Source: a virus. From it: a DNA stretch of 23,299 nt. The notes below the pieces were generated by a model that made no database searches, was not told where the DNA came from, and worked only from the letters and a program-made list of their open reading frames with translations. How positions within the stretch are numbered: the stretch's first letter is position 1; each line of letters opens with the position of its first letter. The DNA is taken from positions 1 to 23,299 of the IMG/VR virus record IMGVR_UViG_3300035698_015060, one strand, 5' to 3'. Below are positions 1,264-22,900 of the stretch, piece after piece. A program made the position numbers and the translations under genes.

Positions 1264-2085
1264 ATGGCAACACTAGGTGGTATTATAAAAAACGTGGCAA
1301 CAGGGTTTTTTAACAAAACTCTGAGCAGGCTCACGGGTGCAGGCATAGCCTCTGATTCGAGGTTAGTACAAGCCAGAGCCAAATGGTCAGGCAGAAGCGA
1401 TAAGAAAGACTGGCGTGTTAGGTTGGCGGTACCAGATGGCCCATTATCACAGTTCTTTGACTTCGGCAATAATCCAATACTATCGCCATTGGCAGACGCT
1501 AACGGTATATTTTGGCCACTTACGCCAGCAGTGGTAATACAGCATTCTGCCAACTACAACGCATTGGCACAGACACACAGCAATTTTCCATTCCAGGCCT
1601 ACCAGAACTCACAAGTGGACAGCCTGAACATAATTGGAGAATTTCCAGTACAGAATTCCGAGGACGCCAAGCACTGGGTAGCAACAGTGAATTTCCTAAG
1701 GACAGCAACCAAGATGTTCTTTGGAAACGATGACAAGGACGGCTTAAAAGGTAATCCACCACCAATATTACATCTTTATGGTTACGGAGATCACATGTTC
1801 CATAGGGTTCCGGTGGTGTTGAATTCATTCAACGTTGAACTTAGACCGGGAATAGATTATATCTCCACTAAACAGACCAACACGCCTTACAAACAATTAA
1901 CAGGGGCAGATGCCGCGTACTTTATGAACGCAGAGGGAGAATCTCAAACCTGGGCACCAACGCTGTCAAACATATCAGTGTTAGTGACACCGATCTACAG
2001 CAGGAAGTCAGTAAGCGAATTCTCCATGAAGAAATTCGTTAGGGGAGAACTGAACGGCAAAGAAGGTGGGGTGGGATTCATTTAA
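1264..2085 (+). CDS. gp48: Baseplate tail-tube cap protein, gp48-type
   Basis: A 273-aa protein, first in the late plus-strand cluster. gp48 (with gp54) caps the hub and starts tail-tube polymerisation in T4-like phages; both resemble tube protein. The segment at about 85-150 (TPAVVIQHSANYNAL, then FPVQNSEDAKHW and FLRTATKMFF) has the pattern of gp48/gp54, in which a beta strand leads into a helix with S/EDA and a downstream aromatic stretch. PPILHLYGYG and VPVVLNSFNVELRPG (about 170-205) look like the following tube-domain strands. It is shorter than T4 gp48 (364 aa) but close to what I recall for cyanophage gp48. The stop overlaps the gp53 start (TAATG). No strong ribosome binding site is close to the start. 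It could alternatively be called gp54; the two cannot be separated by eye. Confidence 0.72.
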   Translation: MATLGGIIKNVATGFFNKTLSRLTGAGIASDSRLVQARAKWSGRSDKKDWRVRLAVPDGPLSQFFDFGNNPILSPLADANGIFWPLTPAVVIQHSANYNALAQTHSNFPFQAYQNSQVDSLNIIGEFPVQNSEDAKHWVATVNFLRTATKMFFGNDDKDGLKGNPPPILHLYGYGDHMFHRVPVVLNSFNVELRPGIDYISTKQTNTPYKQLTGADAAYFMNAEGESQTWAPTLSNISVLVTPIYSRKSVSEFSMKKFVRGELNGKEGGVGFI

Positions 2086-2384
2086 TGACCAAGTACTCAT
2101 CAACATCACCATATTTCAAGACACCGCAATCGGCAAACAGTTTGGGAGTCTTCGTCCCTCGTACACTGACGTCCGAGGAGGACGACCAGAGCTACACCAT
2201 AGAGAGGACCTACGCATACAGGCCTGACCTATTGGCATATGACTTGTACGGTTCACCGAGACTTTGGTGGGTGTTCGCACAGCGTAATCCAGACGAAATA
2301 GAAGATCCAATATATGATTTCAAACCGGGTGTGACCATCAAGTTACCCAAACCTGGAAACGTATCCAACGACCTAGGAATATAA
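2085..2384 (+). CDS. gp53: Baseplate wedge protein gp53 (short form)
   Basis: A 99-aa protein. Residues 46-72 (RPDLLAYDLYGSPRLWWVF, then AQRNPDEI) are the signature of the phage gp53 wedge family, and residues 75-90 (IYDFKPGVTIKLP) form the LysM-like end that closes the domain. In T4, gp53 clamps neighbouring wedges and completes the inner baseplate. T4 gp53 is about 196 aa; this version keeps only the conserved core with a short N-terminus, as I recall for marine T4-like phages. The ATG overlaps the gp48 stop by one base, with GGTGGGG a little upstream, so translation is probably coupled. One base separates it from the next gene. Confidence 0.88.
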   Translation: MTKYSSTSPYFKTPQSANSLGVFVPRTLTSEEDDQSYTIERTYAYRPDLLAYDLYGSPRLWWVFAQRNPDEIEDPIYDFKPGVTIKLPKPGNVSNDLGI

Positions 2385-2385
2385 A

Positions 2386-4683
2386 ATGTCTGAATACGAT
2401 GAGTACACAGGCAGACCAAAAAACTTCAGAACTTCTTCTTTTGTTTCTGCTGATAAAAATCTTAAAAAAAGAGCATCAAAAAACACTCAAAAAAAAGTTC
2501 AATCGATTTCAAGAGTCAATAACAACGACTTTGAAGTAGGTAAAGGAAATTTACGTCCAAACGTGCTCCACAAGTACGCATCGTACAACTATCTTTTCAC
2601 GTTGAGTGGCATAAACGAAACAGAACTGAGGACACACGGATACCTCAAGAGTCCACCACACGACATAATAGCGAGGTCTTCGGGGGTCAGTGAACCTAAC
2701 CTCTCCACTAGACAATTTGTAGAAGAGGATGTCAACAGTAAAACGTACGATCCCGAATTTGCGGCAACAAGAACAACGAGAGAAAACACATACGAAGAAA
2801 ATTTTGGAGCGAGCAGGTCGATATTATCACAAGGGCTTGACGTTTTCTTCGAAAACGTGAACATGCTGTCCACCACAGGTCCCAACGCTGAACGTAATCT
2901 GGGTAACTTCACAAAGATGGAATTTGAAATACACGAGCCCTACAGCATAACACTGGTGGAGAAGATACGTGCCGCCACAGCCATAAACGGTTACGAGGAC
3001 TACCAGGACGCACCATTATTGTTGACCATAGACTTCAAGGGGTTCGACGAGAACGGTAATCCAGTGCTAGAGGGATCGTCGCACGTGAGGAAGATACCAG
3101 TACTGATTGCAAGGGTAGAATTTGACGTGGACCAGGCAGGTGCGAAGTACTCGATAATAGCAGTGCCTTATGGAGAACTGGCGTACGATGACAGATTCAA
3201 GTTTCCAAGGACGGACATACCGGTCAAGGCGAACAACTACCAGGAGTGGATAAGCAGGGTGCAAACTGTACTTGATAAAAATCAACAAGATGAAGTAGAC
3301 GAGGGTCTTAGGGAATTCAAGGACCAGATCAGATTTAACGTACACCCTGACGTCGCGGAACAGGGCAAGTCATACCTCAACGGTGTGGAGTCCACCAACT
3401 TCACAGCAGACGTAGTCGAAACCAACGAGATTGGAAGTGGATTCGGTGAGGATGGACTAGCTTCTGTGTTTGGGGATCCGAATCCTAAAGTTAAAACCTC
3501 CGCGGGCAGTGGCGGCAGTGGCATATCATTGGTCAAGTACTTTGAGGACGCAATCAGGGCCGGATCGGGATATGAGAAGATCACCGAAGATTTCTGGACA
3601 ACCTACCTGAAAGGCACGAAAGAATTCACCAGTGACCAGCTGGATGATCCTGCACAGGTGTTGGACATATTTGAAAGCAACAAGATACAAGAGATAGCCA
3701 TGAAGCACCAGTTCATACATTGGTACAAGATAAAAACGACTGTGGAGACCGACACGAAGCGTTTCGACAGGATAACCAAGATGCACCCCAAAACAGTGAC
3801 ATACCAAGCCGTGCCCTACAGGATACACGTGATGAAATTCCTGAGACCGGGGATCAGCTTGGGCAAGATCGACTGGAACAAGAAGGTACACAAGAGATAC
3901 GATTACATATACACAGGGGACAACCTTGACGTACAAGGATTGAAGATCAACTACAAGTCGGCATACTACATGAGGAATGTGCGTGGTGACGACAAGGCCA
4001 GCACAGAGAACAACCAGATACTGTTCGAGGACAAAGCTAAAAAAATGGTAGATGGGAAAGAAAGATATCCAGAAAATCCACCATTGAGGTCGTACCCAAC
4101 AGGAGTCAAAGGGAAGAGCAATCTAAAGACAGGAAATGATTCTGAAAAACCACAGGAGTTCTACGATTACCTGACCAATCCTGAGGCTGATATGATGAGG
4201 ATCGAATTGGAGATCCTGGGAGATCCTGCTTACATATGCCAAGATATGTACACACCTATACATGCTGATAGGAGGACAACATCAGGAGGCACAAGATCGT
4301 GGGACAGCGAACGAGATTCATTCAACGCAGACAGCTTCCAGCCAATAATAGCAGTGAACTACAGATTACCAGACGACATAAATGACCAGGACGGACTGAT
4401 GTTCAGCGATGGCAAGAAATTCAGGGAAGACAACCTGTTCTTCAACGGGCTCTACCAGGTCAACAAGATCGACAGCAAATTTGATAATGGCCAGTTCACA
4501 CAGACCTTGCACTGTTCTAGGTTCAACAACCAACAAGGTGAGGGGCTAGACCCGACCGTGTCGGCTATGTCCAACAGCAGTAAGAAGAAAATAATAATAG
4601 ATGGAACACAGAAAAAAGCTAAAGACCTAGCAATAGAGAAAGCCAAGGAATTTGCGGAAGATTTTAAAAATGAATCAGCGTAA
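2386..4683 (+). CDS. Virion structural protein, candidate baseplate hub component (gp27/gpD-like C-terminal part)
   Basis: A 765-aa protein lying directly before gp5, the usual place for a hub protein. No exact T4 counterpart is recognised. Residues 59-80 (NVLHKYASYNYLFTLSGI) open the structured part after a charged, lysine-rich leader (1-45). The C-terminal part shows the pattern of phage hub proteins of the gp27/late-control-D kind: a strand ending in L-G-D-P at 611-614, and at 686-712 GLYQVNKIDSKF followed by GQFTQTLHCSRF. Residues around 440-490 (FIHWYKIKTTV, YRIHVMKFLRPG) fit a hub beta domain. Inferred role: trimeric hub that links tube cap and gp5 spike. AGGA at 2375-2378, 7 nt before the ATG, is a fair ribosome binding site. 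The first 45 codons are AT-rich with runs of A. Confidence 0.6.
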   Translation: MSEYDEYTGRPKNFRTSSFVSADKNLKKRASKNTQKKVQSISRVNNNDFEVGKGNLRPNVLHKYASYNYLFTLSGINETELRTHGYLKSPPHDIIARSSGVSEPNLSTRQFVEEDVNSKTYDPEFAATRTTRENTYEENFGASRSILSQGLDVFFENVNMLSTTGPNAERNLGNFTKMEFEIHEPYSITLVEKIRAATAINGYEDYQDAPLLLTIDFKGFDENGNPVLEGSSHVRKIPVLIARVEFDVDQAGAKYSIIAVPYGELAYDDRFKFPRTDIPVKANNYQEWISRVQTVLDKNQQDEVDEGLREFKDQIRFNVHPDVAEQGKSYLNGVESTNFTADVVETNEIGSGFGEDGLASVFGDPNPKVKTSAGSGGSGISLVKYFEDAIRAGSGYEKITEDFWTTYLKGTKEFTSDQLDDPAQVLDIFESNKIQEIAMKHQFIHWYKIKTTVETDTKRFDRITKMHPKTVTYQAVPYRIHVMKFLRPGISLGKIDWNKKVHKRYDYIYTGDNLDVQGLKINYKSAYYMRNVRGDDKASTENNQILFEDKAKKMVDGKERYPENPPLRSYPTGVKGKSNLKTGNDSEKPQEFYDYLTNPEADMMRIELEILGDPAYICQDMYTPIHADRRTTSGGTRSWDSERDSFNADSFQPIIAVNYRLPDDINDQDGLMFSDGKKFREDNLFFNGLYQVNKIDSKFDNGQFTQTLHCSRFNNQQGEGLDPTVSAMSNSSKKKIIIDGTQKKAKDLAIEKAKEFAEDFKNESA

Positions 4684-4699
4684 CAGGATAAATTAAAGT

Positions 4700-6955
4700 A
4701 TGACATACAAGAGTTCGGTTGGTTTCACAGATTCGGCCGATAACCAGAAAAATTTCAGTCAGAAATATAACAACGATAATTCCGGTCCTTACGTTGGGAC
4801 GATAAAATACGTTATAGATCCACTGAGGATGGGAAGATTGGGAGTGAACATTCCAGCCCTTTCTAAAACGACTTCGCCATCATCCAGCCAGATCATATGG
4901 TGCCAGTACCTGTCACCTTTCTACGGTGCAAAGAGTATTGAAGCAGTCTCAAAGACGGATCCTTTTGACTACAAAGAGACACAGCACTCATATGGATTGT
5001 GGGCGGTACCACCTGACATAGACACAGATGTGTTGGTGTTGTTTGCCAAGGGCGAGAAGGGCGAGTCACAGGCCTACTGGATAGGTTGCATACAGAAACC
5101 ACTGGTCAACCAACAGATTCCAGCACACGGTGCCAGCACGAACACAAGCATGCCGGCGGGCGGAGCAGATTACAGCCAGAGCAAGGAAGATTTATACGGT
5201 ACTAGCAGTTTGCCATCAGGCGAGAAGAACATGCGAACGTACAAGGACGGAGAAACGTTAGCCAACGTTAAGGGTTGGAAATATCCAGTAAATGATATTT
5301 TAGCGGACCAGATGGAGAAGCAGGGCCTAGTGCAAGATCCTGTGAGGGGAACAATAACAAGTTCTGCTAGGAGGGAATCACCCAGCAAGGTGTTTGGGAT
5401 CAGCACACCGGGAGCAATACGACCAGACTCGAGGACTTTGAACATTGGCATAAACAACACACCTATCAAGACAGACAGGAATCCGGGACACAGTTTTGTC
5501 ATGGACGATGGAGATACAGACGAGCAGAATCAATTGACGAGGATCAGGACGGCATCGGGACATCAGATTCTGATGCACGACACAGAGGGCACAGTGTACA
5601 TTGCCAACGGTTCAGGTAAGGCATTCATAGAGATGGAGAAGGATGGTACAGTAAGTGTGTTCTCGGACGGAGGCATAAACATGAGGACCAAACAGGATTT
5701 CAACCTACACTCGGACAGGCACGTGAACTTCCACGCAAAGGGCAGTCTGAACTTCACAGCGGAGCAGAACGTCAATCTCAACGGGGGTTTCAACGTCAAC
5801 ACAATGGAAAAGAATTCTATACTAAAATCATCACAGGGGGCAGTGAGAAGTTACGCCGCGACACAGATAACATCTTTCACGTCTGGGACACAGATGCACG
5901 GTGCAGGCGGAAACATAGATCTGGCAGGCGCCCAGGTACACATGAACTCACAGGGTGCTAGAGCAGGATGGGGACCATCATGGTTGGTGCCGGAGCATGA
6001 CCAAGTTGGCATAAGAGTATCTGATGGGCTAATAGACATAGACACTGAAAGACCGTTCAAGCAAGGTAAAGCCAACAAGATAGAGAACAGCACGACTGTG
6101 TCTGACTTCGTGACACACGAGCCATACACGAGAACCAGCGGTACTGCGATAAGGAAGAAATACATCAACGACATAATAGCAAGTATAACGGCAGAGAATC
6201 CTAGTGTGTCAGCACAGGACCTGAACAACATAAAAAAACGATTGCTCTCCAAGGACAGCATATCTGCCGTGACAGCAGAGATTAACAAAATTGTCAGTGT
6301 GAGCAACAACAAGGTATCGGACTTCGCATCAACAGAGATAAAAAAGCTAGTAGGCAATAACACGAAACTGGACCTTTCACAATTGAACAAAATAAATGAT
6401 TTACTGGTCAAACCTAACATAGCTGATGTGTCCGGCCAGATCAGGAAAATTGTGGGCAACAACGTGAAACTGGACTTTTCACAACTGAACAATATAAAAA
6501 CAAAAGTAATGGCCCACCCCACCATAGCCGAGGTGTCGGGAAAGGTTACTGACTACGCCAAAGACATTGTCGGTCTATCTGTCCCTGTGTCACTTAATAT
6601 TTCATCACTGAATGATCTAAAAAGTAAAGCCACAAATTATAAAAAAGAAATCACCAACATGGCCTCAGGTTTTATACAAGGGAAGTTAGCACAGTACGGT
6701 AAGGCCGCGTTCGAGGGTGTTAGATCATTCTTCTCAGGATTTAAATTTAGTGACAGTAGACTGAAAGATCACGTGCAATTAGTTGGCAAGTCGCCCTCAG
6801 GTATCAACATATATTCGTTTAAATACAAACAGTCAGCAGGAACATACGAGGGCGTGATGGCACAGGAAGTTCCATGGGCGAGACAAATGACAGACACAGG
6901 ATTCTACATGGTAGATTACAGCAAGGTGGATGTTGAATTTAGGAGAGTGAACTAA
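4700..6955 (+). CDS. gp5: Baseplate hub/spike protein, gp5-type, with C-terminal S74-like chaperone
   Basis: A 751-aa central spike. Residues 31-150 (GPYVGTIKYVIDPLRMGRLG, later YWIGCIQKPL) are the OB-fold domain of gp5/VgrG spikes. Residues 264-395 (GHSFVMDDGD, then repeated strands such as GTVYIANGSG and HVNFHAKGSLNF) form the triple-stranded beta-helix. Between them (about 150-260) there is no T4-lysozyme-like domain, unlike T4 gp5. Residues about 395-500 continue the shaft and are followed by helical repeats (505-665). Residues 684-751 (SDSRLK, PSGINIYSFKY, GVMAQEV) are a short Peptidase_S74-like intramolecular chaperone, which normally trimerises and then cuts itself off. Role: needle that pierces the outer membrane on sheath contraction. 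Ribosome binding site AGGA at 4685-4688 is rather far (11 nt). The stop overlaps the gp25 start (TAATG). Confidence 0.85.
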   Translation: MTYKSSVGFTDSADNQKNFSQKYNNDNSGPYVGTIKYVIDPLRMGRLGVNIPALSKTTSPSSSQIIWCQYLSPFYGAKSIEAVSKTDPFDYKETQHSYGLWAVPPDIDTDVLVLFAKGEKGESQAYWIGCIQKPLVNQQIPAHGASTNTSMPAGGADYSQSKEDLYGTSSLPSGEKNMRTYKDGETLANVKGWKYPVNDILADQMEKQGLVQDPVRGTITSSARRESPSKVFGISTPGAIRPDSRTLNIGINNTPIKTDRNPGHSFVMDDGDTDEQNQLTRIRTASGHQILMHDTEGTVYIANGSGKAFIEMEKDGTVSVFSDGGINMRTKQDFNLHSDRHVNFHAKGSLNFTAEQNVNLNGGFNVNTMEKNSILKSSQGAVRSYAATQITSFTSGTQMHGAGGNIDLAGAQVHMNSQGARAGWGPSWLVPEHDQVGIRVSDGLIDIDTERPFKQGKANKIENSTTVSDFVTHEPYTRTSGTAIRKKYINDIIASITAENPSVSAQDLNNIKKRLLSKDSISAVTAEINKIVSVSNNKVSDFASTEIKKLVGNNTKLDLSQLNKINDLLVKPNIADVSGQIRKIVGNNVKLDFSQLNNIKTKVMAHPTIAEVSGKVTDYAKDIVGLSVPVSLNISSLNDLKSKATNYKKEITNMASGFIQGKLAQYGKAAFEGVRSFFSGFKFSDSRLKDHVQLVGKSPSGINIYSFKYKQSAGTYEGVMAQEVPWARQMTDTGFYMVDYSKVDVEFRRVN
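6218..6660 (+). repeat. Helical tandem repeats in gp5
   Basis: Four related units anchored on L-N-x-I/L-K: LNNIKKRLL, LNKINDLLV, LNNIKTKVM and LNDLKSKAT, at about gp5 residues 507, 561, 595 and 636. The second and third are closest: each is preceded by I-x-K-x-V-G-N-N-x-K-L-D-[LF]-S-Q and followed by a V-S-G, giving a unit of 34-35 residues. Spacing is otherwise irregular (54, 34, 41). The hydrophobic spacing suggests amphipathic helices, perhaps a trimeric coiled coil. This stretch is also more AT-rich than the beta-helix coding region. Confidence 0.6.
6749..6952 (+). other. Peptidase_S74-like intramolecular chaperone domain (gp5 residues 684-751)
   Basis: The motif S-D-S-R-L-K begins at Ser684, with Lys689 five residues on, the spacing of the Ser-Lys pair described for the self-cleaving endosialidase chaperone. 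It is followed by PSGINIYSFKY and EGVMAQEV, the two other conserved blocks. At 68 residues it is a short form. Expected action: assist trimer folding of the beta-helix, then cut before or at Asp685. Confidence 0.72.
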
Positions 6956-7383
6956 TGGCATACGGAGGTAGTGGTAGTGGTAGCGGCGGTGGCTCAGGCA
7001 ATAGCAACAATTCAGTTACCTTCAAGGGTTTCAGCTCACGTGCGGACAAGCAGAACTTCAAGCTGTACGATTTCGAGGTTGCCAAACAAGATCTCATCAA
7101 CAGATTATCCGTGAGAAAAGGTGAGAGGGTGGAGAACCCGGAGTTTGGCACCATGATATACGATGCCATATTCGAACCATTCACAGATGCACTCAAAGAC
7201 GCTATTATAGACGACGTCACAGCCAATCTGAACGCAGATCCACGTATCAGCACAAGCGAAATACTGGTAACTGAAGCAGACAAAGGCATAGCGATACAGG
7301 CCACTATAACGTATGTTCCCTTGAATATCACTGAGAAATTGAGATTCAACTTTGATGAGAACTCACTGTTGCGTCTATCTTAA
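6955..7383 (+). CDS. gp25: Baseplate wedge protein gp25 (GPW/gp25 family)
   Basis: A 142-aa protein. Residues 36-80 (KLYDFEVAKQDLINRLSVRK, then GERVENPEFGTMIYD) are the signature of the gp25/gpW family, conserved in phage tails, R-type pyocins and type VI secretion (TssE). With gp6 and gp53 it forms the inner wedge and helps start the sheath. The last 60 residues (ISTSEILVTEADKGIAIQAT onward) form the family's beta sheet. The N-terminus (4-20) is an extra Gly/Ser-rich tract absent from T4 gp25. The start overlaps the gp5 stop (TAATG) and has a strong ribosome binding site, AGGAGA at 6941-6946, inside gp5. Confidence 0.92.
   Translation: MAYGGSGSGSGGGSGNSNNSVTFKGFSSRADKQNFKLYDFEVAKQDLINRLSVRKGERVENPEFGTMIYDAIFEPFTDALKDAIIDDVTANLNADPRISTSEILVTEADKGIAIQATITYVPLNITEKLRFNFDENSLLRLS
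6964..6999 (+). repeat. Gly/Ser codon repeat at the gp25 N-terminus
   Basis: Twelve codons (residues 4-15) made almost only of GGT/GGA/GGC and AGT/AGC/TCA, giving GGSGSGSGGGSG. The first part is an imperfect GGTAGT hexamer repeat, which could change length by slippage. It probably forms a flexible arm. Confidence 0.8.
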
Positions 7384-7425: not shown

Positions 7426-10400
7426 ATGGCAACAACAGATAGACAGAACAGATTACTTGTAGCGGAAGATTGGAGGAAGATCTACCAATCATTCCAACAG
7501 GCAGATTTCAAGAGTTACGACTTCGAAACATTGAGAAGGACAATGGTAGCATATCTACGTGAGAACTACCCAGATGATTTCAATGACTTTGTCGAAAGTT
7601 CGGAATATGTTGCACTGATCGATCTGATTGCCTACGTGGCACAAGCACTTTCTTTCAGGGTAGACCTGAATGCCAGGGAAAACTTCTTAGAAACAGCAGA
7701 AAGAAGAAATTCTGTATTAAGATTAGCAAGACTGATCAACTACAATGCAAGAAGAAACCAACCGGCAACAGGCCTTTTAAAAGTCAACACGATATCAACC
7801 ACGCAGGATGTCAACGATTCCTCCGGCACTAATCTCGCTAACAGCACAGTGGTGTGGAATGATTCAGCAAATTCAAATTACAGAGAACAGTTCACGGCAA
7901 TATTAAATGCGGCAAACCAGACAGGACAGTTGTTTGGACAACCGAGAGAGGCAGGAAAGATTGGAGGGATAGACACAGAAGTTTACACACTGAGCTCTAA
8001 CCAGTTAGATGTTCCGATGTTCCAATTTTCAAAATCAATCGGAGGCATCGGCAGAGATTTTGACATAGTGCCAAGCACTATCAATGACTCGGAATCAATA
8101 TACGAATCTCCTCCAACGCCTGGGACTGGATTGACTTACACGTACAGGACTGACGGATCAGGTGACAGTTCCAACAACACAGGATTTTTCTTCCTGTTCA
8201 AACAAGGACAGTTGCAGAATACAGAATTCACAGTGGACACAGCAATAACAAATTATGTACAAAGCATAGGCCGTAATAACATAAACGATAGCGATGTATG
8301 GTTATATCAATTAGATCAGTTTGGTCAGATAGCAGATACATGGACTAAAGTACCTTCTCTTTCGGGGAACAATGCAATATACAATTCATTGTCTAAATCA
8401 ACAAGGAACATTTACAACGTTGTTACAAAAGCAAATGACTCCGTGGATTTAGTTTTTGGAGATGGCAACTTCTCTGATCTCCCACTGGGATCATTCAAGG
8501 CTTATTACAGGATCAGTGACAACGCCAAATATTCGATACAACCTGCCGACATGCAGAATGTTCGACTAGCAGTGCCGTACATAGATGCAAACGGATCTCA
8601 ACAGACATTGACTTTAAGCATGAGTCTAAAAACAAATGTTTACAACGCCGCGTCAACGGAAACAAATGAATCGATTAAAGAGAAAGCACCACAGGTTTAT
8701 TATGCACAGAATAGAATGATAACAGCAGAGGACTACCAAGTAGTTCCACTATCAGCGTCACAGGAGATCGTTAAAGTAAGATCTGTGAATAGATCTGCAT
8801 CGGGTATATCTAGAGCTAAAGAAATTCTAGATCCCACAGGAGCATATTCAGACGTAAGTGTGTTTGCAGAAGACGGAATGCTGTACAAAGAAGAAAGCAC
8901 ACAACAGTTTACCTTCACATTCAACGGACGTAACGAAATACAATCAACGATAACTACATCGGTTGAACCAAAATTAAAAGAAGCATACTCTAGACAATTC
9001 TACTACGAGAAGTATGCTAAACAAGATCTAACGTCACTGACTGCAACATGGAATTCGACTACAACTGCCACGAACACCAACACTGGATATTTTGATTCTA
9101 GTGGGGCTCTCGTAGTTGGTGACAGTGCAACTTCAAACTTAAAATATGTTAAACCAGGTGCACTGGTTAAATTTACATCTCCGGACACACGGAAATTTTT
9201 AAGCGGATCCCTAGTAACGTCTACAACCCAAAATGCAGAAGACAGGGCATGGGCGAAAGTTGGTGCAGTAGAGGGAGATGGTGCTAATGGAGGACTAGGA
9301 AATCTTGCAACAGGTGTAGGACCCATAACTCTTTCCAGCATAATTCCAAATGGAGCAATAATCAATTCTGTTATACCCAACCTGACAACAAACTTCTCGA
9401 CAGCACTGGACAACGACATAATCGACAAGATAGAAGCATACGAGGAATTTGGTCTACGATACGACATAGACACAGAGACATGGAAAGTGATCACAAGCAC
9501 TAACCTAAGTACAAGTTCTGTCTTTGCCACTACGAACCAAGGTAGCACAGCAGGGACAAACCTGGATGCAAGTTGGTGGTTTAAATTCACCAATGACGGT
9601 AACACTTACACAATTACATATAGGAAATTAGAATACATATTTGAATCAGAATCACAAAATAAATTTCATTATGATTTAGAAGAAAAAATATATGATTATA
9701 AAACAGGCAAGAGTGTAAAAGACACAATTAAGATATTGAAGACGAACTCTATATTATCATCTGGCAACAGCATAGGATATCCTATAATATGGCAGGTAGT
9801 AGATACTATTGCAGAAGCAGACGGCTTCCAAGACAACAGGAAAGTCAAGGTTGGTTTCTTTGACGATGACGATGACGGAGTGGTTGATAATCCAGAAATA
9901 TTTGACATATTCATAGAACCAGATACATCGGTGTCCACTAAATTTGTTTTCTTTGAGAAGTACACATCTTATGATACTATACAGAGATTCAGACCATATG
10001 CCGCAACTAATTTCATAGTAACATTAAACGAAACAAGTATCAATTTAAACACATCGACTTACACAGACGGGCAGTTGTTCTATTTCTACGCAGACGCTGA
10101 AAATGTTATTAAGAAATATACATTAGCAAACAACACACTGTCGACAACAACGGACTACGAAGCAAAGAAAGGTAGAAATTCCATAGATTTCCGTTACAAA
10201 CATCATGCTGGACAGGAAACTAGGATTGATCCTAGTGTGTCTAACATTGTAGATGTGTATCTTCTAGAAAGATCATACGACAACTTGTATAGAATATGGT
10301 TACAAGACGGAGGAATGATGCCAACACCTTCCACAGCGGACCAACTGAGAATAAATTATTCAGGAACGCTAAACCCATTGAAATCACTGTCAGACCAGAT

Positions 10401-10908
10401 CATATACCATCCAGTGAAATACAAGATACTGTTCGGATCAAATGCGGAGGAAGAATTACAAGCAACATTTAAAGTTGTAAAAAATGCCAGAACAAACGTT
10501 ACAGACGCAGTGGTCAAGACAAGGGTGATATCTGCAATCAACGAGTTCTTCGCATTAGACAACTGGGATTTCGGAGACACATTTTATTTTACAGAATTAG
10601 CCGCTTACATACACAATCAACTCGCTCCGGATCTTCTAACAGCAGTTATTGTGCCAAACCAGTCGGGACAGAGCTTTGGGTCTCTCTTCCAATTGAATTC
10701 AGCGGCAGACGAAATTTTTATCAGTGGGGCCACCGTTGATGATGTTTCAATTATTAGTGCATTAGGAGCCAACCAACTAGCGGCTTCCGGCACTGTGATT
10801 ACATCGACATCAACTGCCACAACAAATACGACAACAGGATCAGCAGTGTCAGGCTCTACTACAACAGGTTCGGGATCAAGTACCGGCAGTAGTGGGGCTG
10901 GATACTAA
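7426..10908 (+). CDS. gp6: Baseplate wedge protein gp6 (large form, 1160 aa)
   Basis: gp6 is the wedge protein that dimerises into the ring joining all wedges in the T4 baseplate. Residues 19-110 are the clear signature: [52 protein letters not shown]. The C-terminal core at about 1045-1115 ([33 protein letters not shown]) matches the end of gp6 proteins. It is much longer than T4 gp6 (660 aa). The centre (about 500-850) carries added beta-rich sequence, including [16 protein letters not shown], an [12 protein letters not shown] stretch and an EF-hand-like loop at 813-824. Residues 1124-1160 are a Ser/Thr/Gly tail. It has its own late promoter just upstream and no good ribosome binding site. 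Its stop overlaps the next start (TAATG). Confidence 0.9.
9862..9897 (+). other. EF-hand-like calcium loop in gp6 (residues 813-824)
   Basis: The 12 residues [12 protein letters not shown] fit the canonical loop D-x-D-x-D-G-x-[ILV]-x-x-x-E at every key position. Flanking segments are beta-like rather than a helix pair, so it is probably an isolated calcium-binding loop. Sea-water calcium would saturate such a site outside the cell. Confidence 0.5.
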
Positions 10909-13900
10909 TGGCCGATAAGTCAATAAATTCACAATCAAATCAAGAAGTTGTTAAACAAGGCGACAACGAACTGAGAAGAACAGTTCAGCATCTACCTGCG
11001 TTCTACAGAACAGACTCAAACCAACGATTCTTGTCAAGTACCCTGGACCCTTTGGTGCAGAAGGGCGAGCTAGAAAGATTAGACGGGTACATTGGAAAAC
11101 AAGATGCCTACACTAGAACAATAACAGACAGGTACATAGGAGCCACAAACAGAGACAGAATGGCATACCAGTTGGAACCTGCTGTTACATACACAGACAG
11201 AGACACCACTTCGATAAATCCAGAGGACCAAGTTAAGTTTGCTGGAACTTATGACGACTATATAAATCAGATCAAATACTTTAGTGGTAACGTAGACAAT
11301 CACGACAGGTTAAACAAAGAAACCACATACAGTTGGAACCCGGCTGTGGACTATGATAAGTTAATCAATTACAGAGAGTACTATTGGGTACCTGCAGGGC
11401 CAACAGCAATAGAGATAGATTCAGTAGGAAAGTTAGCAGTATCGGAATACAAAGTAAATGCAATAACAGGAGCATATACATTTCCACACAAAGGTAATGC
11501 ATCAAATCCAGAACTTGTACTGTATAGGGGAAACACTTACAAATTTGACGTAAATGCAGTAGGACATCCTTTCTACATCATGACAGAACCCCACAAGGAT
11601 CAGTTAAGTTCAGATGGATCAAGTTCTACATTACAGACATTAGGGGTCAGCAACAACGGAGCAGATGGCGGGATAGTAACTTTTGTAGTGCCAACAGATG
11701 CACCGAACACTTTATACTACCAGTGCGGCAATCACGATTCCATGTACGGGATATTGAATATAAAAACAGTAGCAACATCTACTACTATTGATCCAGCAAA
11801 TGATATCGAAGGAGTTAAGAATTATAGTCTGAGAACATTGGCCTTGTCTAATGGTATGAAAATTAAATTCACTACAAGTAAAGTAGGAACAACATACCAG
11901 AGCAAAGAATATTACGTTGAAGGTGTGGGAGAAGCAATCACGCTGACAGACACTGCTAATCTTTCAACTCCGGAAACTTATGCAGACAACGGTGTACCCA
12001 AAGACAAGGATTACATAACAATCAACAGGTCCTCACTGGACCAGAACGCATGGTCGAGATACAACAGGTGGTTCCATAAATCTGTGATAGAGGAAGCCAG
12101 CAGGATAGCAGGAACCGAGTTAGTGTTAACCGAGTCCGACAGGGCCAAGAGACCTATTATAGAATTTGATTCTGGACTTGCACTTTACAAATATGGTACA
12201 GTGGCAAAAACACCAATAGACCTTTTTGACACAACAACCAGAGACGCATTGAGCATAGTGCCTAACACACAAGGTTATTTCGTTGATGGGGTTGCAATAA
12301 CAGACGGAATGAGAATAGTGTTCGCGGGTGACACAGATCCTCTAGTGAAGAACAAGATATATGTTGCAAATTTTGTAAACGCAGGTGATTCGTCACTAGT
12401 ATTATCGCTGACGTTGACAGAAGCTTTTGATGGCACAGTTGCTGATAAGGAAAACATATACATCAAGTCGGGACTGGCTAACAAAGGAAAATCTTTCTAC
12501 TACAACTCTACTACAACATTCTGGGAAGCGACGCAGACCAAATCTGCAACCAACCAACCACCGTTGTTCAACATGTATGACAACAAACATACACTTTTTG
12601 ATGATGCAACAATGTATCCAAGTTCAACATTCGTAGGAGCCAAGGTTTTCACTTATGCAACATCAGACACAGCAACTACAGATACAGTATTAGGCATCAA
12701 AGTAAAATACAAAACAATTAACAACATCGGAGACATAGTATTTGATTCAGATCATACAAGTGGGACATTCACTTATAAGTCTGGGACAACAACAGTTACT
12801 AAAAATTTAGCAGAAGGGCACTTGCATTACACAACTAGTAGGGAAGGACACAATTCTAAGAGTGCTTGGGTTAAAAGACCAAAGGAAAGCAAACAGAGAG
12901 TAATTAGAACACACATAGTTGATAAGACTGAGAAAAAGTTATTCCCTATAGACTTCTACAAGAATTCTGCCGCATTAACAGACCTAGAAATTTCAGTGTC
13001 AATTAACGGCACGAGGAAGACACTTACAACAGACTACACGTTAGTGAACGGAACAACCAACAAGTACATAAAATTTGTTAAAGAATTAAAAGTGAATGAT
13101 CAGATACGTATGGCTGGTTATAGCAGTGCTGATAAAGTTGTCGGAAAAGGGATATATGAGGTACCTGATAATTTAGCAACCAACAGCTTAAACCAACAGC
13201 TAGGAACATTTACGTATGGACAGATATTAAATCATGTGAGGGATATATTTGACAAGAACCAAGATGTAACAGGTACTATACCGGGTACATCTAATCTTAG
13301 AGATAAACCAGATTCCAGATTAAAAGGCGGTAGCATACATCAGCATGAGGGATCTCTACTTCCGGCAATTTTTGGATTGATAGATCAGGAGTCAAATGTG
13401 ATTTCAGCTATGGATCACTCTAATCATGAATATGAGAAATGGTACGACGCATTTTTAACACACGCAACAGGAACAGCATATGAGGGAATTGCCTCAGATC
13501 GGGTTGACGAGATAGTAATAGCAATAACACAAGGAAAAAATTATTCTTTCCCATTCTATTACGAGGACATGATAGGTTGGGGAGAAAATGTTTCTACTAG
13601 AACATACACAGTGCAAGGCACATTACAGAACGAATACGCACTTGACTCGCAACACAGCATTACCTCATTAAGCAATAGGGCAGTATATGTATACGTGAAT
13701 GATATACAATTGACCAGAGGAACAGATTACACTTTTAGCACAACAGACGACACTGTCAGCATAACAGCAACACTGGCAGTAGGGGATATTGTCAAGATTA
13801 AGGATTACGCAGATACCACAGGAAGTTACATGCCACCAAGTCCGACTAAACTAGGAATGTATCCTAAGTTTAAACCTGAGTTGTTTACTGACGACACTTA

Positions 13901-16900
13901 TATTACAAGTACGTCAGTTATTAGAAAACACGATGGATCGATCGTAAAAGCCTATGGTGATACCAGAGATGATTTAATACTAGAACTAGAAAAAAGGATT
14001 TACAACAACTGTAAGGTTGCTTATGACAGCACACTGCTGGACATACACGATGTAAAACCAACAGCTTTTTCATCGTCGGAATACACGTTAACGGAAATTA
14101 ACGACGTTATGGGTGCAGACTTCTACTCATGGGCAGGCAGGAACAGTGTGCAGTACATCAACAACACACAGTTCGTTGAAGGAACACCGTTTACTTACAA
14201 CTATGCCCTTTCTACTAACAGGATCTCCGGCGAACAATTGCCAGGATACTGGAGAGGAATATATCAATATTTCTATGACACAGACGCACCACATGTGAGA
14301 CCATGGGAGATGTTAGGACATTCTCAAAAACCCAGCACATGGGACGCAACTTACGGAGCGGCACCATACACATCGGGCAACGATGTATTATGGAATGCCA
14401 TAGCCACAGAACCAGGACATTTTGGAAAACCAACCATCCGCAATTACCTACCGGTTGATGCATCAGGAAACCTACTAGACCCAATAGCGGCAGGACTTAT
14501 AGATTACTTCGACATACCCGGAAGATCATTGCCGTGGAAGTTTGGCGATCAAGCCCCGGCAGAGACTTCTTGGAGAAGATCTAGTGCTTATCCTTTCACT
14601 GTGATGAAGACACTGGCACTTACGAAACCAGCTAAATTTTTCGCCAACTACTTTGATATTTCTAGAATGACTACCAATGTATCAGGCAATCAGATCTCGA
14701 CCGACACAGGGGTACGTATCACAGTTGCAACAGCGAAATATCACCTAGAGACGTCAATTGATAATAACACAGGAATCACTACGAGGTACCAGACAGCAGG
14801 CTACCAAAACTTTGTTGTGAACAATTTAATAGCCAAGAATCTAGATCCAATGACATTTTATTACAACAAGATGAAAAATTTGAATGTGCAGTTAGCATAC
14901 AAATTAGGAGGATTCACGGACAAGGGCAACTTGAAAGTGTTGACAGATTCTGTGTCACCGGGGTCTACTGCAGGTTCAAAATTCCTACCAGACGAAAACT
15001 ACAAGATTTTATTCCGTACTTCAAATCCAGTGGAGAGTTTTGAATATTCTGGTGTACTGATTGAGAAAAATGCCGATGCAGGTGTTGACGGATCTACACT
15101 ACTAGGCGGATACAAGATACTAGGATATTCTACAACGAAACCTTACTTTAGATTTAACTACCCTGTAAAAACAACATCTAGTTCTAATATGACAGTTGAT
15201 GGAACAACAATACAAAGATACAGCTCATACCAAGAGAATGTGCAGACTATACCTTATGGTTATGTGTTCACTACGATACAGGATGTTGCAGATTTTCTTT
15301 TTGGATACGGACACTGGTTAGAAGAGCAAGGCTTCAGATTTAACAAATACTCGAATGAGATAAAGGAAACACTAAACTGGGCGAACGCAGTCAAGGAGAT
15401 GCTATTCTGGACAACACAGCAATGGGCACCGGGTAGTGCTATAACAGTATCACCGGCGGCGGACGGTTTTGAATTGGACACTAACAACTCGATCGTTGGT
15501 AGGTTAAGAAACCTTGCAGGAGATTACTCGTTACTGGACGCAGGTGGGAGAAAGATAGACATTAGAGAGATCAGCACCAAACGTGTAGGCAAGACATTTG
15601 ACATAGGAGTCAAGTCCGACAATATAGGTCTTTACAACATAGCACTTAACACAGTGCAGAAAGAACACTTATTACTGTTTGACAACAGCACAGTTTTCTC
15701 AGATATCATATATGATCCGTTCACGGGATTCAGACAACAGAGATTAAAACTTGTAGGTTGGAAGACTGCAGGTTGGAATGGAGATTACTATGCTCCGGGA
15801 TTTGTTTTTGATGCCGCACAGGTCACTTATTGGACGGCCAACACAGACTACAGACTTGGCGATTCGGTGGAATACCAAGGAAAGTTTTATGTAGCCAAGT
15901 TCAACCATGGATCGTCGACAACATTTGACAATGCACAATGGATAACAAAAACAGAAAAACCATCTCCACAGCTAATACCAAACTTCGATTACAAGATCTC
16001 GCAGTTCGGAAATTTCTATGATATGGAATCAAACAACTTCGATGAGTCACAACAGCAGTTGGCACAGAGGTTGATAGGTTACCAAAGCAGGGATTATCTA
16101 GAAAATCTATTCGTCAACGACGTATCACAGTATAAATTTTATCAAGGGTACATCAGGGAGAAAGGCACACAGAATGCCATAGACAAACTGACAAAGGCCA
16201 GTTACGAGGGATCAAATATAAATTTAGATCTTTACCCGGAATGGATGATCAGGACTGGGAAATTTGGTAACACTGATTCTATAGAAAGCATACAAATTAC
16301 TTTGAAAGACGACGAAGTGACGGCAAATCCACAGAGCATAGAACTTCTAGCAACTTCAAACCAAGACAAGCAATACACACGTTCTCTAGCAGTTGTCAGC
16401 TCAGACCTTTACTACAAGCCAGTTGAATACAACACTAGTACAACATTTTCAAAATATGATTACACCGAGCAAGGGGTGGACAACGATTCCATACAACTGC
16501 TAAAGACAGCAGGTTACCCGCAATTAACTCAAGTACAACAGACAGCATTCGACATATCGGATTTGTTAAGCACAGACATGAATGCCGTGACAGGCAATGA
16601 CCTAATATGGGTAGCCAACAAGAGTAACAAGGATTGGGATGTCTATAGATTGACATCGGCTTCGTACAAGATCAGCACACTAAAAACAATCAATGGTACT
16701 TTACAATTAGAAATAAAATTCACAGACTCGCATGGATTATCAGCAGGTTCCACGGCCACAGAAGCAGACTACTTTGGAATATCAAACAGCGAGGAAGCGA
16801 CACTGAACGGGGTCTACCAAGTAAGCAGTGTGTCTGACCACGACACTGTTATAATAGACTACGTAGGCAATACAGGTTTTATTCCTACACTTGCAGATGG

Positions 16901-19900
16901 TTCGACAGCAGACAGCTACGGGAACGTCTACAAGTTTGTTTCTGTTAGGTTAAGCTCAATGGACAATGTAAATGACCTAATAAGTTACAATGTTTTCAAT
17001 GACAAAGATGATGCTATTAATAAAGAAGGTGACAAGGTATTTGCAGATGCAGATGCATCCGGCTTATGGAAAGTGTATGAGAAACAAGATCCTTACACCA
17101 CTTGTCTAATACTTTCACCTGACACAACAACGTTGGACCAGGAGTTTGGACACAGGATCGTAGCACGTAATGACGGAAGGACAGTTATAACGTCAGCCCC
17201 TGGAAAAGGACAAGGAGAAGTACACTTCCTGTTCAGATCTTCCGCGGTAGCAGGAACAACTTTACAGACACAAATCACAGCTACAATGTCAGACAACAAC
17301 GATAACACTAGTAGACTAGGTGACTCGTTATCAATGAGTACTGATGAGAACTTTGTAGTAGCAGGTGCACCATACACAAATACACTAGGGTTGGATGGCA
17401 GTACTAGACAACTGAACGCAGGATTAATAAAAATCTATGTTTGGGATCCGACGACATTCAAATACGGAATACTAGACACTATCTCTCCACCAACTGACGG
17501 TTCAAGTGCAAACGAGGATCTTAACTTTGGATGGGCACACAAGATATCAGAACCGACAGCAAGTTCACAGAGAAGCACAGCACAGAAATACCTGTTTGTT
17601 TCAGCACCAGGTCATGACAGTGACAGAGGCAGGGTGTACATGTACACTTGGGGAATTGGGGCAGATGGTTCAACTTATTCTGCATGGACGCAAGACTACA
17701 CACTGGAAGCACCGACCGGCGGTAGCGGACAAAGATTCGGACACAGGATACAGGCCAACGACAACGGTGACATACTGGCGGTTAGTTCACTAGCACCAGG
17801 CAACGCCGGAAAGGTAGAAATATTTGTTAGATCGGGAACATCGAGTGATGGAAGCACACAGAATTCATTCACACTGGTACAAACATTAACAGGCGTCGCA
17901 TCCGATGGATCTAGCAATGATTTGAACTTTGGTGAGTCCGTTGCAATGAGCAAAGACGGCACGACACTGATAATAGGTGCCCCGGGAGTAGACAACACAG
18001 ATCAACCAGATGCAGGAATAGTTTACTACTACAAATGGAATGCAGATGGGTCGACCAACACATACACTTTGCAACAGACAATAACAGCACCGGATAAATT
18101 GAGCAATATGAAATTTGGCTCAACGCTAGACATCAACGATGCCGGCACAAGGGTAGTGATAGGGGCAGAGTTAATGTCTACCAGCAGAGAAATGAAATTT
18201 GATTCTGGGCAGACCACTTTTGATTTACAGGATACAACTATATCAGACTTGAACACAGGGTCAGGAGCGGCGTACACAGCCACTATGTACCATAGTAAAT
18301 TTATAATAGACGATAGGCTGGTATCGGACAAAGTATCAGCAAACGATGATTTTGGACGTGGAGTGTGTATGACCAACGACAACGTATTTGTAGGTTCGCC
18401 TATGGATGATGGCAACACAGGGATAGTTAATGATGGCACCCTGTATTGTTATGACCTGACAGTGGCCGGCGAATATGCGTGGAACAATATAGCATCAGAA
18501 ACAACAATGATAGACACCAACAAGCTAGGACAGGTTTTCGATTTTGATAGCAAGACCAAACAGATCAGAAACTATTACGATCTCTACGATCCCGTTAAGG
18601 GAAGAATACTTGGGGTGGCTGACAGAGAGATCAACGTTAAGTCAGCATGGGATCCTGCATCTTACAACACAGGTGAGGATGTAAACAATAAAATACTATG
18701 GACAGACGACCATATAGGAGAAGTGTGGTGGGATCTGTCAACGGTCAAATGGACATGGTATGAACAAGGTGATCAAGAACACAAAGCAAACAACTGGGGT
18801 AAAATCTTCCCGGGCTCTAGCATTGATGTTTATGAATGGACAGAATCGACACTACTGCCAACAGAATGGAATGATATATCAGGAACACAGGGAGGCACGG
18901 CACAAGGCATATCAGGAACGGCTCTAAACAAATATGCATTCTCTTCTGTATACAACTCGAGACTAGACACTTTTGTAAATTACTATTACTATTGGGTCAG
19001 AGGCAAACAGACAATGCCCACAAACAGCGTTGTAACTAGGAAGAACACAGTGGCATACGTGGCTAATCTGATAGAGAGTCCACAGAATTTTGATGTCAAG
19101 TATTACAGTGTGACAGACACGAACAAAATATTAATTAACAACATTACTGATCTAGTAAATGGTGACATAGTACTCAACATTGATATAAGATCTAACACCT
19201 TCGATGGTGATGCACACTCAGTATGGAAACTAGCAAGAGAAGGAGACAAGGAGTGGAGACCAGGGCATCAAATAGAGACACGTTGGTGGGATTCGTTGGT
19301 AGGCAAGAACTCGGCGGGAGATTCCGTGCCAGATCTAACCCTTCCTCTGAATGAGAAATATGGGAACAGCATAAGACCAAGACAGAGTTGGTACACAGAC
19401 AGATTTACAGCACTGAAAGAAATAGTTGACTACTCGAACTCCGTGTTAAAACAACATCAACTTGTGGGACAGATTCAGCTAACAAACCTCGAGGCAAAAG
19501 AACCAGAGCCGACTGCACAGAGTCTTGTGTGGGACGACAAAGTGGACACGTTTGCAGAACTGGGATACCTATACACAGGAGACGTGTCAGGTAAAATAAA
19601 CTATCTTGTCAGAGCAGATGAGACCGCCAACAATTTTTGGTCAATATACCAATGGGACGGGGCACAATGGTCAAGGACAAGGGTACAGACATATAATACT
19701 TCAGGATTCTGGAGTTACACAGACTGGTACAAAACAGAAGGTGCTATGTCCCATGATGGAAATACTAAGATAGACAAACAAGTGACTTACGAGTATGAAT
19801 TAGACACACTAACACTAGACACAGGCAAACATGTAAAAGTGACAAGCGCCGACACAGGTGGATGGAAATTGTACATGAAGACAACCTCAGGTTGGGAGAA

Positions 19901-22900
19901 TGTAGGAACAGAAAATGGAACAATAAGAATTTCAACGAAACTGTATGACTACTCACAGGATGCCACAGGGTTTGCAGGGGGAGACAACTTCGATGACAAC
20001 TTCTTCGACCAAGAACCTTCATTGGAGACTAGGCACATATTGAAAGCAATTAGGGATGACATATTCATTAATGATCTTGCAGTGGAGTACAACAACATAT
20101 TCTTTATTGGGCTGAGGAAAGTATTAGAAGATCAGACATATGTTGACTGGATGTTCAAAACAAGTTTCATCAATGCTACAAACAGTGTTAGGAAACTGGA
20201 TCAGAGGAAAACATACACAGCAGGAACAGACAGCTGGATAGAGAGTTACATAAACGAAGTCAAACCTTTCCATACAAAATTGAGAGAGTACAAGTTAGGA
20301 TACACCAACCTAGAAACACAGGATGGCATATTCACAGACTTTGACAATCCACCGTTCTATGATGCAACAAATGACAGGATTAAATCATTAGACGTGTCCG
20401 TAGACACCGATAAGCTGACAAAATATCCATGGCAGATGTGGTATGACTACCACAAAAAACATGTGGCATCGATAACAGTGACCAAAGGTGGATCAGGATA
20501 CGTGTTAACTCCAACGGTGACAGTATCGGTAGGGGATGACAGCACATCAGCTACCGCAACAGCGACCATAAGCGGAGGAGCAGTGACAGCCATAACAGTG
20601 ACAGGAATAGGCGGCAGTTATACTACAACACCAACGGTGACCATCACAGGAGGGTTAGCAGACGGATCAAATCCAACGGATATTGCAAAAGCATATGCAA
20701 ATCTAAACAACGACCTAGTCAGAGATTTCAACACAACAATCAAGTTTGACAGGGTGTCCAGCACCTCAAGGGTAGTGGACTGGAAAGCATCTACCAGCTA
20801 TGCATACAACGATCTGATCAGACACAAAAATGAATTATACAAAGCAACAAGTGCCTTCACTGCAACTACGGACTTTGATGACAACATAGGTAACCTGTAT
20901 AAAATTTACGGCGATGAAACAGGATTTACTGCGGCAGACAGAACAAAAGGGTTCTACACACCGACTTCGGGAATGGCAGGCAACGAACTTTCACAAGTCA
21001 TGACAGGTGTTGACTATGGCGGAACTATGGTAACAGGCTTACTATTTGATCAGAACCAAGGGTGGGATCAGTCTAACTGGTACGACTACCCGTGGGACAA
21101 CTACGGTAACTCTGCCATCAATGCATTCATAGCCGATGGATCAACAGTAGCATACACTTTTGCAACAGCACCAGCGGTCGGACAGGTGTTCTATGCTTAT
21201 GCAACCAAAGACGACAGCACGAGAACAAGGTTGTCAGACACATTCACAGGGGATGGGTCAACTACAACATTCTCACTCAGCACAGCACCAGACGAAAACG
21301 CTTTTATTGAATTCATCAACGCAGACGATGACGGAGTGTTGACGCCGACAGACGACAGGACATTAGATTCGATAATAAAAGGTGGATTATTCACTACAGG
21401 TGGACTATATGCATCAGCACTGGGATCAGCACCATCGGACATCAATCTAGATGGAGATGACTTCATGGGAGTGGAATCGAGCTACGCACCAGAGGAGACA
21501 GTGCCAGGACAGATATTCGACACCCTAGACATCAAAGTATATACAACACCGGAGTCAGGTGTTCCTTTAATATCTGACATGGTCCACCAGGGCAACGGCT
21601 CCACGACCACGTTCTCACTGGGAGATCACCCAGGAACATTAGGATCTGTGACAGTGGCAGTGGACGGCGTGATTAAGAAATTGACAACGGACTACACGGT
21701 CAACGTTGGAAACAAGACGATAACATTCGGTACTGCACCTGTTGTTAACAGTGTTGTGTCAACAAAAACATTTGCGATATCAGGAAAAGATTTTATGGTG
21801 TTGGATCATTACTATGGTGACGGATCGACAGTACAATTCACTTCGTCATCAAGAGAGGATTTCGATCTAGACTCGACACTGTCAGAACTATACGTGACAG
21901 TGGACGGTGTGCCAACAACAGCATTCACAACGGCAACAACAACTCCGGAGTACGGAGATGGGTCAACGACCAAGATCGGGAACACACTTGTGTTAACTTT
22001 CAGTTCAGCCCCTCCGGCAAACGCATTCGTACAGATAGCAGGGTTCCGTAAAGACACATCATCATTTACAAGGAACTATGCGAGCATCAGGAACGAGTCA
22101 ATAACATATGATGGTTCCACCACACACGTACTGACATATCCGGCAGGAACGATCAGACCATACACGGGACTGACCATGATAGAAGCCAACGGTAAGATGT
22201 TGAGATCCCCAGACACGACCTACTACATGGGTGACGGAAGCACATACACCTACGGTGTGACATCTGGCTTACTGGATGACTCTACTGTGGATCCAGCAAA
22301 GACAATTTCATCAGCGGATCAAGTGGAAGTGCATGTCAATGGAGCATTAAAAACACTGACCACACATTACACTGTGGACATAGGAACACAGAACATCAAC
22401 TTCACGTCAGGCAATGTTCCCACAGCAGACGAAATGGTCAGCATAACAACTTTCGTTGATCACCATTACAGTATTGACACCAGCAACAGACTGGTACTCA
22501 ACCTGACACAGATAGCATCAGACGGATACACGCTGAATGTCAATGACGAGATGTCGGTGACCACATTCAACAATGCGGTAGGCATGAGTCTGAGAAGAGA
22601 AGTTCTTGAAGGGAGAGCAGATGGAGTGTTTAAACTATACTTTGAGCCAGCAAACTCCACACACACTAGAGTGTGGTTCAACGGAGAACAGTTGACAGTA
22701 GGGTATGACTACAAACTAGTCGGAAACACGATAACCGTGGCAGGCAAGACTATAACATCGTCTGACAGACTGGATGTCTTGTATTTCGCATCTCCGAGTG
22801 TGACGAACTCCACAGGATTCAGGATATTCAAGGACATGATGAATAGGACTTTCTACAAGCGTATTAGTAAAACAGCGACGACAGAATTAACATTAGATTT

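Follow-up and report, generated by a model that had tools for sequence, protein, structure and literature searches.

The gp5-like central spike encoded in the window, i.e. the whole 23,299-base stretch analyzed here (IMG/VR virus record IMGVR_UViG_3300035698_015060, positions 1 to 23,299), ends in a short module which profile comparisons confirmed to be of the S74 type, chance being excluded. Judged from sequence, the proposal that these last 68 residues are a shortened S74 auto-processing module, which would cut at Phe683|Ser684 after the spike trimer has formed, was given an even chance of being right. This places an S74 module on the spike with which a large group of uncultured T4-like phages pierces the membrane; the phages are probably marine in view of carriers such as Pelagibacteraceae contigs. 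No description of an S74 module on a gp5 spike was found in the literature searched, which excluded most subscription journals. Published work reports S74 in group 2 jumbo phages from fibres, spikes and other proteins (PMC7824862) and assigns an intramolecular chaperone to receptor-binding proteins rather than to the spike (PMC11406892).

The window holds a T4-like tail block of gp53-like, 765-aa virion protein, gp5-like spike, gp25-like and gp6-like genes (Table 1). Residues 19-410 of the spike match phrog_13211 (baseplate hub subunit and tail lysozyme; E 1.7e-31), and homology to gp5 hub/spike proteins together with synteny of the tail module (gp53-like, gp25-like and gp6-like neighbours) identifies the protein as a spike of the T4 gp5 type, as the preliminary description had assumed. 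Pfam searches of the spike gave sub-threshold matches to Phage_base_V (residues 97-130) and DUF2345 (317-419), and a lysozyme domain was not found. Core and module are separated by an extension of about 200 residues (481-683), which was absent from the preliminary description, as were the shortened form of the module and its optional presence. The extension carries LDLSQLN-type repeats (window 6140-6748) spaced by about 34 residues, of which the window and L003 possess two plus a degenerate one and L002, L004 and L005 four. Elsewhere in the window, a giant ORF of at least 4130 aa (10908-23297) lies downstream of the gp6-like gene and runs off the contig end, and a gp55-like late sigma factor gene (156-1142, -; phrog_12791) is located on the opposite strand.

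Table 1. Position of the spike gene, its parts and neighbouring tail genes in the window.
Feature	Position	Strand	Basis or remark
gp53-like baseplate wedge gene, two genes upstream of spike	2085..2384	+	Pfam Phage_gp53, 22.3 bits (cut-off 21); phrog_7145
765-aa virion structural protein, directly upstream of spike	2386..4683	+	phrog_11190, E 1.6e-27
gp5-like central spike gene, 751 aa plus stop	4700..6955	+	ORF; phrog_13211
OB-fold region and putative triple beta-helix core, residues 1-480	4700..6139	+	aligned over 16 relatives
Variable extension, probably helical, residues 481-683	6140..6748	+	LDLSQLN-type repeats; low identity
Segment before Ser684, residues 669-683, of aromatic, cationic, acid-poor type	6704..6748	+	composition compared with 1357 background windows
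Phe683, predicted P1 residue	6746-6748	+	P1 is F/W/L in 78/78
Short S74-type module, Ser684-Asn751 (68 aa, 7.8 kDa)	6749..6952	+	profile comparisons
Ser684 codon (AGT), predicted nucleophile, first module residue	6749..6751	+	conservation
Lys689 codon (AAA), predicted general base	6764..6766	+	conservation
gp25-like baseplate wedge gene, directly downstream of spike	6955..7383	+	Pfam GPW_gp25, 28.9 bits (cut-off 27.2)
gp6-like baseplate wedge gene	7426..10908	+	phrog_10646, E 6.4e-296

Taken alone, the C-terminus of the window's spike just missed the curated cut-off of Pfam PF13884 (20.8 bits, E 4.9e-4; cut-off 22), and a six-frame search of the window record reported no match to this family. 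Over 19 records, five relatives matched it, four above the cut-off (25.1-26.1 bits) and the fifth with 18.1 bits, and at E<=0.01 it was matched by 37 of the 38 short modules aligned in A4, including that of the window. Profile-profile comparison (hhalign) of the short modules with eight fibre-type S74 domains returned a probability of 98.3% (E 1.2e-14), and the top three sequences of a profile search against the PDB were all S74 proteins, namely the GA-1 appendage 3gud (E 0.0017), the tail fibre 6f45 (0.0035) and MYRF 7dc3 (0.049). The S74 relationship that had been suggested for 6749-6952 is thus well founded, and the blocks on which it was based are in place, with SDSRLK starting at residue 684 (base 6749), INIYSFKY at 702 and GVMAQEV at 718. 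Among 438 other mechanical ORFs of at least 150 aa in loci L115-L186, none showed SD.R.K within its last 100 residues. Prediction of the module structure from the diverse set A4 resulted in a compact monomer (pLDDT 88.8); the closely related set A1 led to a useless model (pLDDT 44.1). Compared with the PDB (Foldseek, VIA-align), the A4 model had neither a match at E<=0.001 (best E 0.65) nor one at Z>=5, and S74 structures (e.g. the 3GW6 / 3GUD / 4UW8 fold) were not among the 50 matches listed by either program, so that the predicted fold adds nothing to the S74 assignment.

The pair of Ser684 and Lys689, already pointed out in the preliminary description, is kept in 105/105 module-bearing spike ORFs (repeats included), corresponding to 79 unique proteins, and does not vary in alignment A4, whose 38 rows share 25-92% identity with the window. 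Since D, R and L of SDxRLK (each 52/52) match Ser and Lys in conservation, an invariant pair is no specific sign of catalysis. The serine codon class proved uninformative within spikes, where it is AGY in 80/80 including the window; in podoviral loci the codon is TCN in 19/21.

In length the module departs from known S74 domains. It measures 68 residues from Ser in 79/79 unique spikes vs 91-143 in the eight fibre-type domains, AQEV and VDY are 13 residues apart vs 15-40, and VDY is followed by 11 residues in 79/79 spikes vs 29-56 in 8/8 fibre-type rows, so the C-terminal trimeric coiled coil is missing. With just 13 residues between AQEV and VDY, a long beta-hairpin tentacle is unlikely in the spike module, although a sharp contrast to fibre chaperones cannot be drawn from this, as three of the eight fibre-type rows are also short (15, 17 and 18 residues; others 26-40). 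According to published work, the T5 pb1 chaperone comprises residues 1263-1396 with a trimeric coiled coil (1371-1394) at its end (PMC4690869), single coiled-coil mutations in MYRF block trimerisation and cleavage (PMC8326128), and Ser-to-Ala exchange abolishes cleavage just before that Ser in the S74 proteins tested (PMC4690869, PMC8326128, PMC10769870). An Arg 14 residues before Ser is described there as taking part in cleavage in T5 pb1 and endoNF, and MYRF is reported to cleave without participation of stalk residues. Neither an Arg at -14 nor an Asp at -25 occurred in the unique 30-residue segments before Ser from 79 spikes.

These features bear on the view that the module is an intramolecular chaperone of the classical kind known from endosialidases and the T5 fibre, which would embrace the beta-helix, drive folding of the trimer and then be cleaved. 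S74 homology, the Ser-Lys pair and the C-terminal place on a protein expected to be trimeric, as judged from the gp5 family, are in line with it. We consider it improbable all the same, given the three shortened distances, the variable extension instead of the core as the next sequence upstream, and relatives encoded without module. Owing to its short form, the missing coil-forming tail and nearest isolate relatives that are podoviral, the module does not bear out the preliminary designation as an intramolecular chaperone normally found on tail fibres. Among other S74 carriers, the 'baseplate wedge initiator' of Synechococcus phage ACG-2014f (L239 1-1167) has at its end an S74 domain that includes the coil but is short in its middle part.

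Cleavage by the module is favoured by the junction. The residue before Ser is F in 68, W in seven and L in three of 78 unique module-bearing spikes, and a terminal F or W was seen in 25 of the 52 unique spikes lacking the module, in 23 cases as part of a segment of the matching type (…KIFKF, …SFFRF, …KFKFW); ORFs open at the 3' end, core scores <150, duplicates and the re-fetched copies L019-L023 were excluded from these counts. Four module-less relatives, counted from hand-chosen shared anchors, end no more than three residues from the expected cut: L172 (691/761 residues, 91%, identical to module-bearing L094) three residues short of the residue before Ser, L153 (400/651 identical to L158) and L150 (403/595 identical to L003) one residue short, and L137 (583/670 identical to L136) two residues past it. 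Indirectly, these ends support the earlier surmise that a module on a piercing spike would need to be removed. Truncation of L172 as an artefact is unlikely, because its end differs in sequence from L094 and the gp25 start follows normally. A split spike was observed in L163 (2306-4624) and L176 (4947-7265), which encode a 498-codon core and a separate 274-codon C-terminal extension ORF ending in '...IKRFFKW*'.

Composition points in the same direction. The 15-residue segments that precede Ser (n=78) and those that precede the stop (n=23) carry charges of +1.68 and +2.43, 3.59 and 3.00 aromatics, and 0.08 and 0.17 acids, respectively, compared with +0.25, 1.00 and 1.42 in 1357 extension windows. 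The pre-stop set excluded 27 module-less spikes with ends other than F/W and two F-ending ones with another kind of segment (...YDF, ...DDDF), and as module-less rows were picked by their F/W end, the last position of the comparison is circular. In interface score the two kinds of segment differ somewhat (p 2.7e-8, relatedness ignored). A corresponding situation was met in podoviral proteins unrelated to the spike, where L198 reads '...FGGVASIF|SDRRLK' and module-less L201 '...FGGVASIFGGL*', ending three residues past the corresponding Phe; module-less L211 and L215 likewise terminate close to the junction, but L218 does not fit, as it diverges from the family long before this point and has a different end. 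Taken together, the aromatic ends of module-less spikes near the junction and the F/W/L before Ser favour self-cleavage at Phe683|Ser684.

If so, trimerisation would be brought about by the OB/beta-helix core and the extension and not by the module, which may restrain the sticky tail, or proof-read tail assembly, until the spike is built. Lys689 would activate Ser684 as in other S74 domains, and the module would release itself before Ser684 by the Ser-Lys mechanism known from other S74 proteins. After release, the finished tip would consist of a trimer whose C-termini are aromatic and positively charged, presumably of the kind which module-less phages encode directly.

Several observations weigh against cleavage. 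The lost tail is the coiled coil that drives trimerisation, and by analogy with MYRF, where coil mutations block cleavage, its absence would be unfavourable; likewise, the upstream Arg of T5 pb1 and endoNF is without counterpart. Simple loss of a module predicts ends near the domain boundary as well, and the observed ends are scattered over up to five residues. Moreover, 20 of the best 80 of 585 core-recruited spikes end in '..DDIA/DDRA' and 12 otherwise, and in L188 the module sits on a tail protein upstream of gp5 and not on the spike.

No other region of the spike is as conserved as the module, which is nevertheless optional. Mean pairwise identity among 31 module-bearing spikes that were not recruited by the module amounts to 79% in the module, 53% in the OB region, 63% in the beta-helix and 35% in the extension, with values of 53-68% over the core regions. 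On a tree of 120 spike cores, presence of the module requires 11 changes, ten of them forced by starred branches; the tree was built by a quick method in which gain and loss are not separable, ORFs open at the 5' or 3' end, core scores <250, short cores, duplicates and L019-L023 were omitted, and its label 'F' includes L163 and L179, which end in F with another kind of segment. Between the window and L025 the modules are 95% identical, although the cores share only 48% identity; with the modules of its close core relatives L001-L005, that of the window shares 84-86%. The module thus appears to have been exchanged between lineages.

Such strong conservation could reflect a lasting job, and the main rival to cleavage is a permanent module, a small folded head capping the trimer or contacting a partner in the host envelope or baseplate, in which Ser and Lys would be kept because the fold needs them. 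We regard it as possible, though less probable than cleavage. Besides the high identity relative to OB region and beta-helix, the single fixed length in 79/79 spikes, the apparent exchange between lineages, the confident compact monomer model and the occurrence of related modules at the end of secreted-looking bacterial proteins are compatible with a permanent head. It is less easily reconciled with L172, the 91%-identical relative encoded without module, and a mere linker gives no obvious reason for the strict F/W/L before Ser or for the similar ends of 23 module-less spikes.

The preliminary description had suggested that an unremoved module would cover the tip where T4 carries the PAAR protein gp5.4. 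A search for PAAR (PF05488, E<=1) in 86 distinct viral contigs, some module-bearing and others not (the window plus 18, then 34 and 33 new ones), gave no match; the contigs may be fragments but include module-bearing ones of 138.7 and 121.8 kb. The controls, T4 and four cultured jumbo phages whose gp5 cores are related, were positive in 5/5 cases. PAAR is reported from the majority of jumbo myoviruses (PMC7824862). The suggestion holds insofar as no PAAR gene was found in the module-bearing contigs, but because module-less contigs are negative too, the module is not simply a PAAR substitute, and a simple trade of one for the other was rejected.

A scan of viral contigs with module patterns revealed 183 loci, and in the best 80 of these the module lies on gp5-like ORFs in 76 cases; the remaining four ORFs are cut by the contig start, so that their core cannot be judged. 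Conservation in this set is inflated by the recruitment with module patterns and the restriction to the best 80 of 183, which does not apply to the core-recruited scan and the set of 31 spikes. The best 80 of 585 core-recruited spikes comprise 29 with module, 18 with an aromatic tip, 20 with DDIA/DDRA, 12 with other ends and one open-ended, and an independent scan of 18 spikes yielded five with module, six with an aromatic tip and seven with DDIA/DDRA. This second conserved ending, GRDKDDIA/DDRA (L009, L014, L120, L166 and others), mostly follows soon after an HEPY motif; in L122 (528-2426) and L132 (4995-6863) it comes after an extension.

Outside the spikes, the nearest isolate relatives of the module are podovirus-type virion and ejection proteins, and tail-fibre families match more weakly; none of the 25 isolate records matched is annotated as a gp5 spike, and a tail fibre and a tailspike account for two weak matches among them (E 0.3-0.5). 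Single occurrences were noted in further contexts. A short module ends the tail protein (phrog_350) just upstream of gp5 in another T4-like contig (L188 1967-4210), another ends a subtilase (PF00082) in a viral contig (L221 884-2773), and in a 1185-aa 'internal virion protein D' (L105 2176-5733) it is internal (approximately residues 280-345), where self-cleavage would give two parts.

Cellular carriers are Pelagibacteraceae and Salipiger ORFs ending in the module (L191 1937-4207, L189, L190, L192 3686-4219; 54-62% identity). The 145-kb SAR11 single-cell contig L190 was rejected as a near-complete phage and is cellular, since cytochrome bc1 genes and a GTPase were recognized by eye beside the module ORF. 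Such carriers raise the notion that a secreted protein of alphaproteobacteria was the ancestor or the model of the phage module, which would act via a host partner. Matches of 61-62% identity on three Pelagibacteraceae contigs and of 54% in Salipiger, N-termini that look signal-like by eye in the Pelagibacter (L191, 757 codons) and Salipiger (178 codons) proteins, and the same '...KKVKKFF|SD' junction in the former agree with this origin. Nevertheless, it seems improbable, for only four of 147 genomes of the family to which the L191 genome belongs match, one of these matches looks like a phage protein, and transfer may run either way.

Returning to self-cleavage, a more general 'pro-tip' principle is conceivable at low probability, according to which minimal self-cutting S74 modules would cap short membrane-active C-terminal peptides and remove themselves on maturation. 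Doubtful to the same degree is its extension to proteins driven into or through the host envelope, i.e. contractile-tail spikes and podoviral ejection proteins, and so is the analogy by which self-removal might resemble the unmasking of viral fusion peptides. On this reading, the module could be gained and lost freely, because an uncapped tip can be encoded directly too. If cleavage holds, it would provide a route to a finished spike tip where no PAAR gene is found, a self-cutting S74 unit smaller than those compared here, and a link between the maturation of spikes and that of ejection proteins. Spikes with and without module form a natural series, and the twin spikes with 91% identity, one with and one without module, make the question of cleavage directly testable.

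Compared with T4 gp5/gp5.4, the present spike is similar in being of the gp5 type and lying beside gp53-like, gp25-like and gp6-like genes; it differs in that a lysozyme domain was not found and a long C-terminal extension with S74 module is present, and in contrast to T4, itself positive for PAAR, with its PAAR protein gp5.4, the 86 viral contigs yielded none. With the podovirus-type virion and 'DNA ejection' proteins of phrog_6121 and phrog_4287 (e.g. Microcystis phage Mwe-JY13, Sulfitobacter phage pCB2047-C, Vibrio phage PVA1) it shares a short module at or near the C-terminus, usually a hydrophobic residue before Ser, and some module-less versions ending near the junction, whereas their N-terminal part is unrelated and their module mostly only 25-48% identical. 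Finally, the S74/ICA chaperones of endosialidase NF, T5 pb1, the phi29 and GA-1 appendages, MYRF and the Bdellovibrio MAT fibres have in common with the spike module SDxxxK with Ser first, the G-V-[MI]-A-Q core, the V-[DE]-Y block and the C-terminal place on a beta-helical, probably trimeric protein, whereas the spike module is shorter, lacks coiled-coil tail and upstream Arg, is preceded by a variable extension and sits on a membrane-piercing spike.
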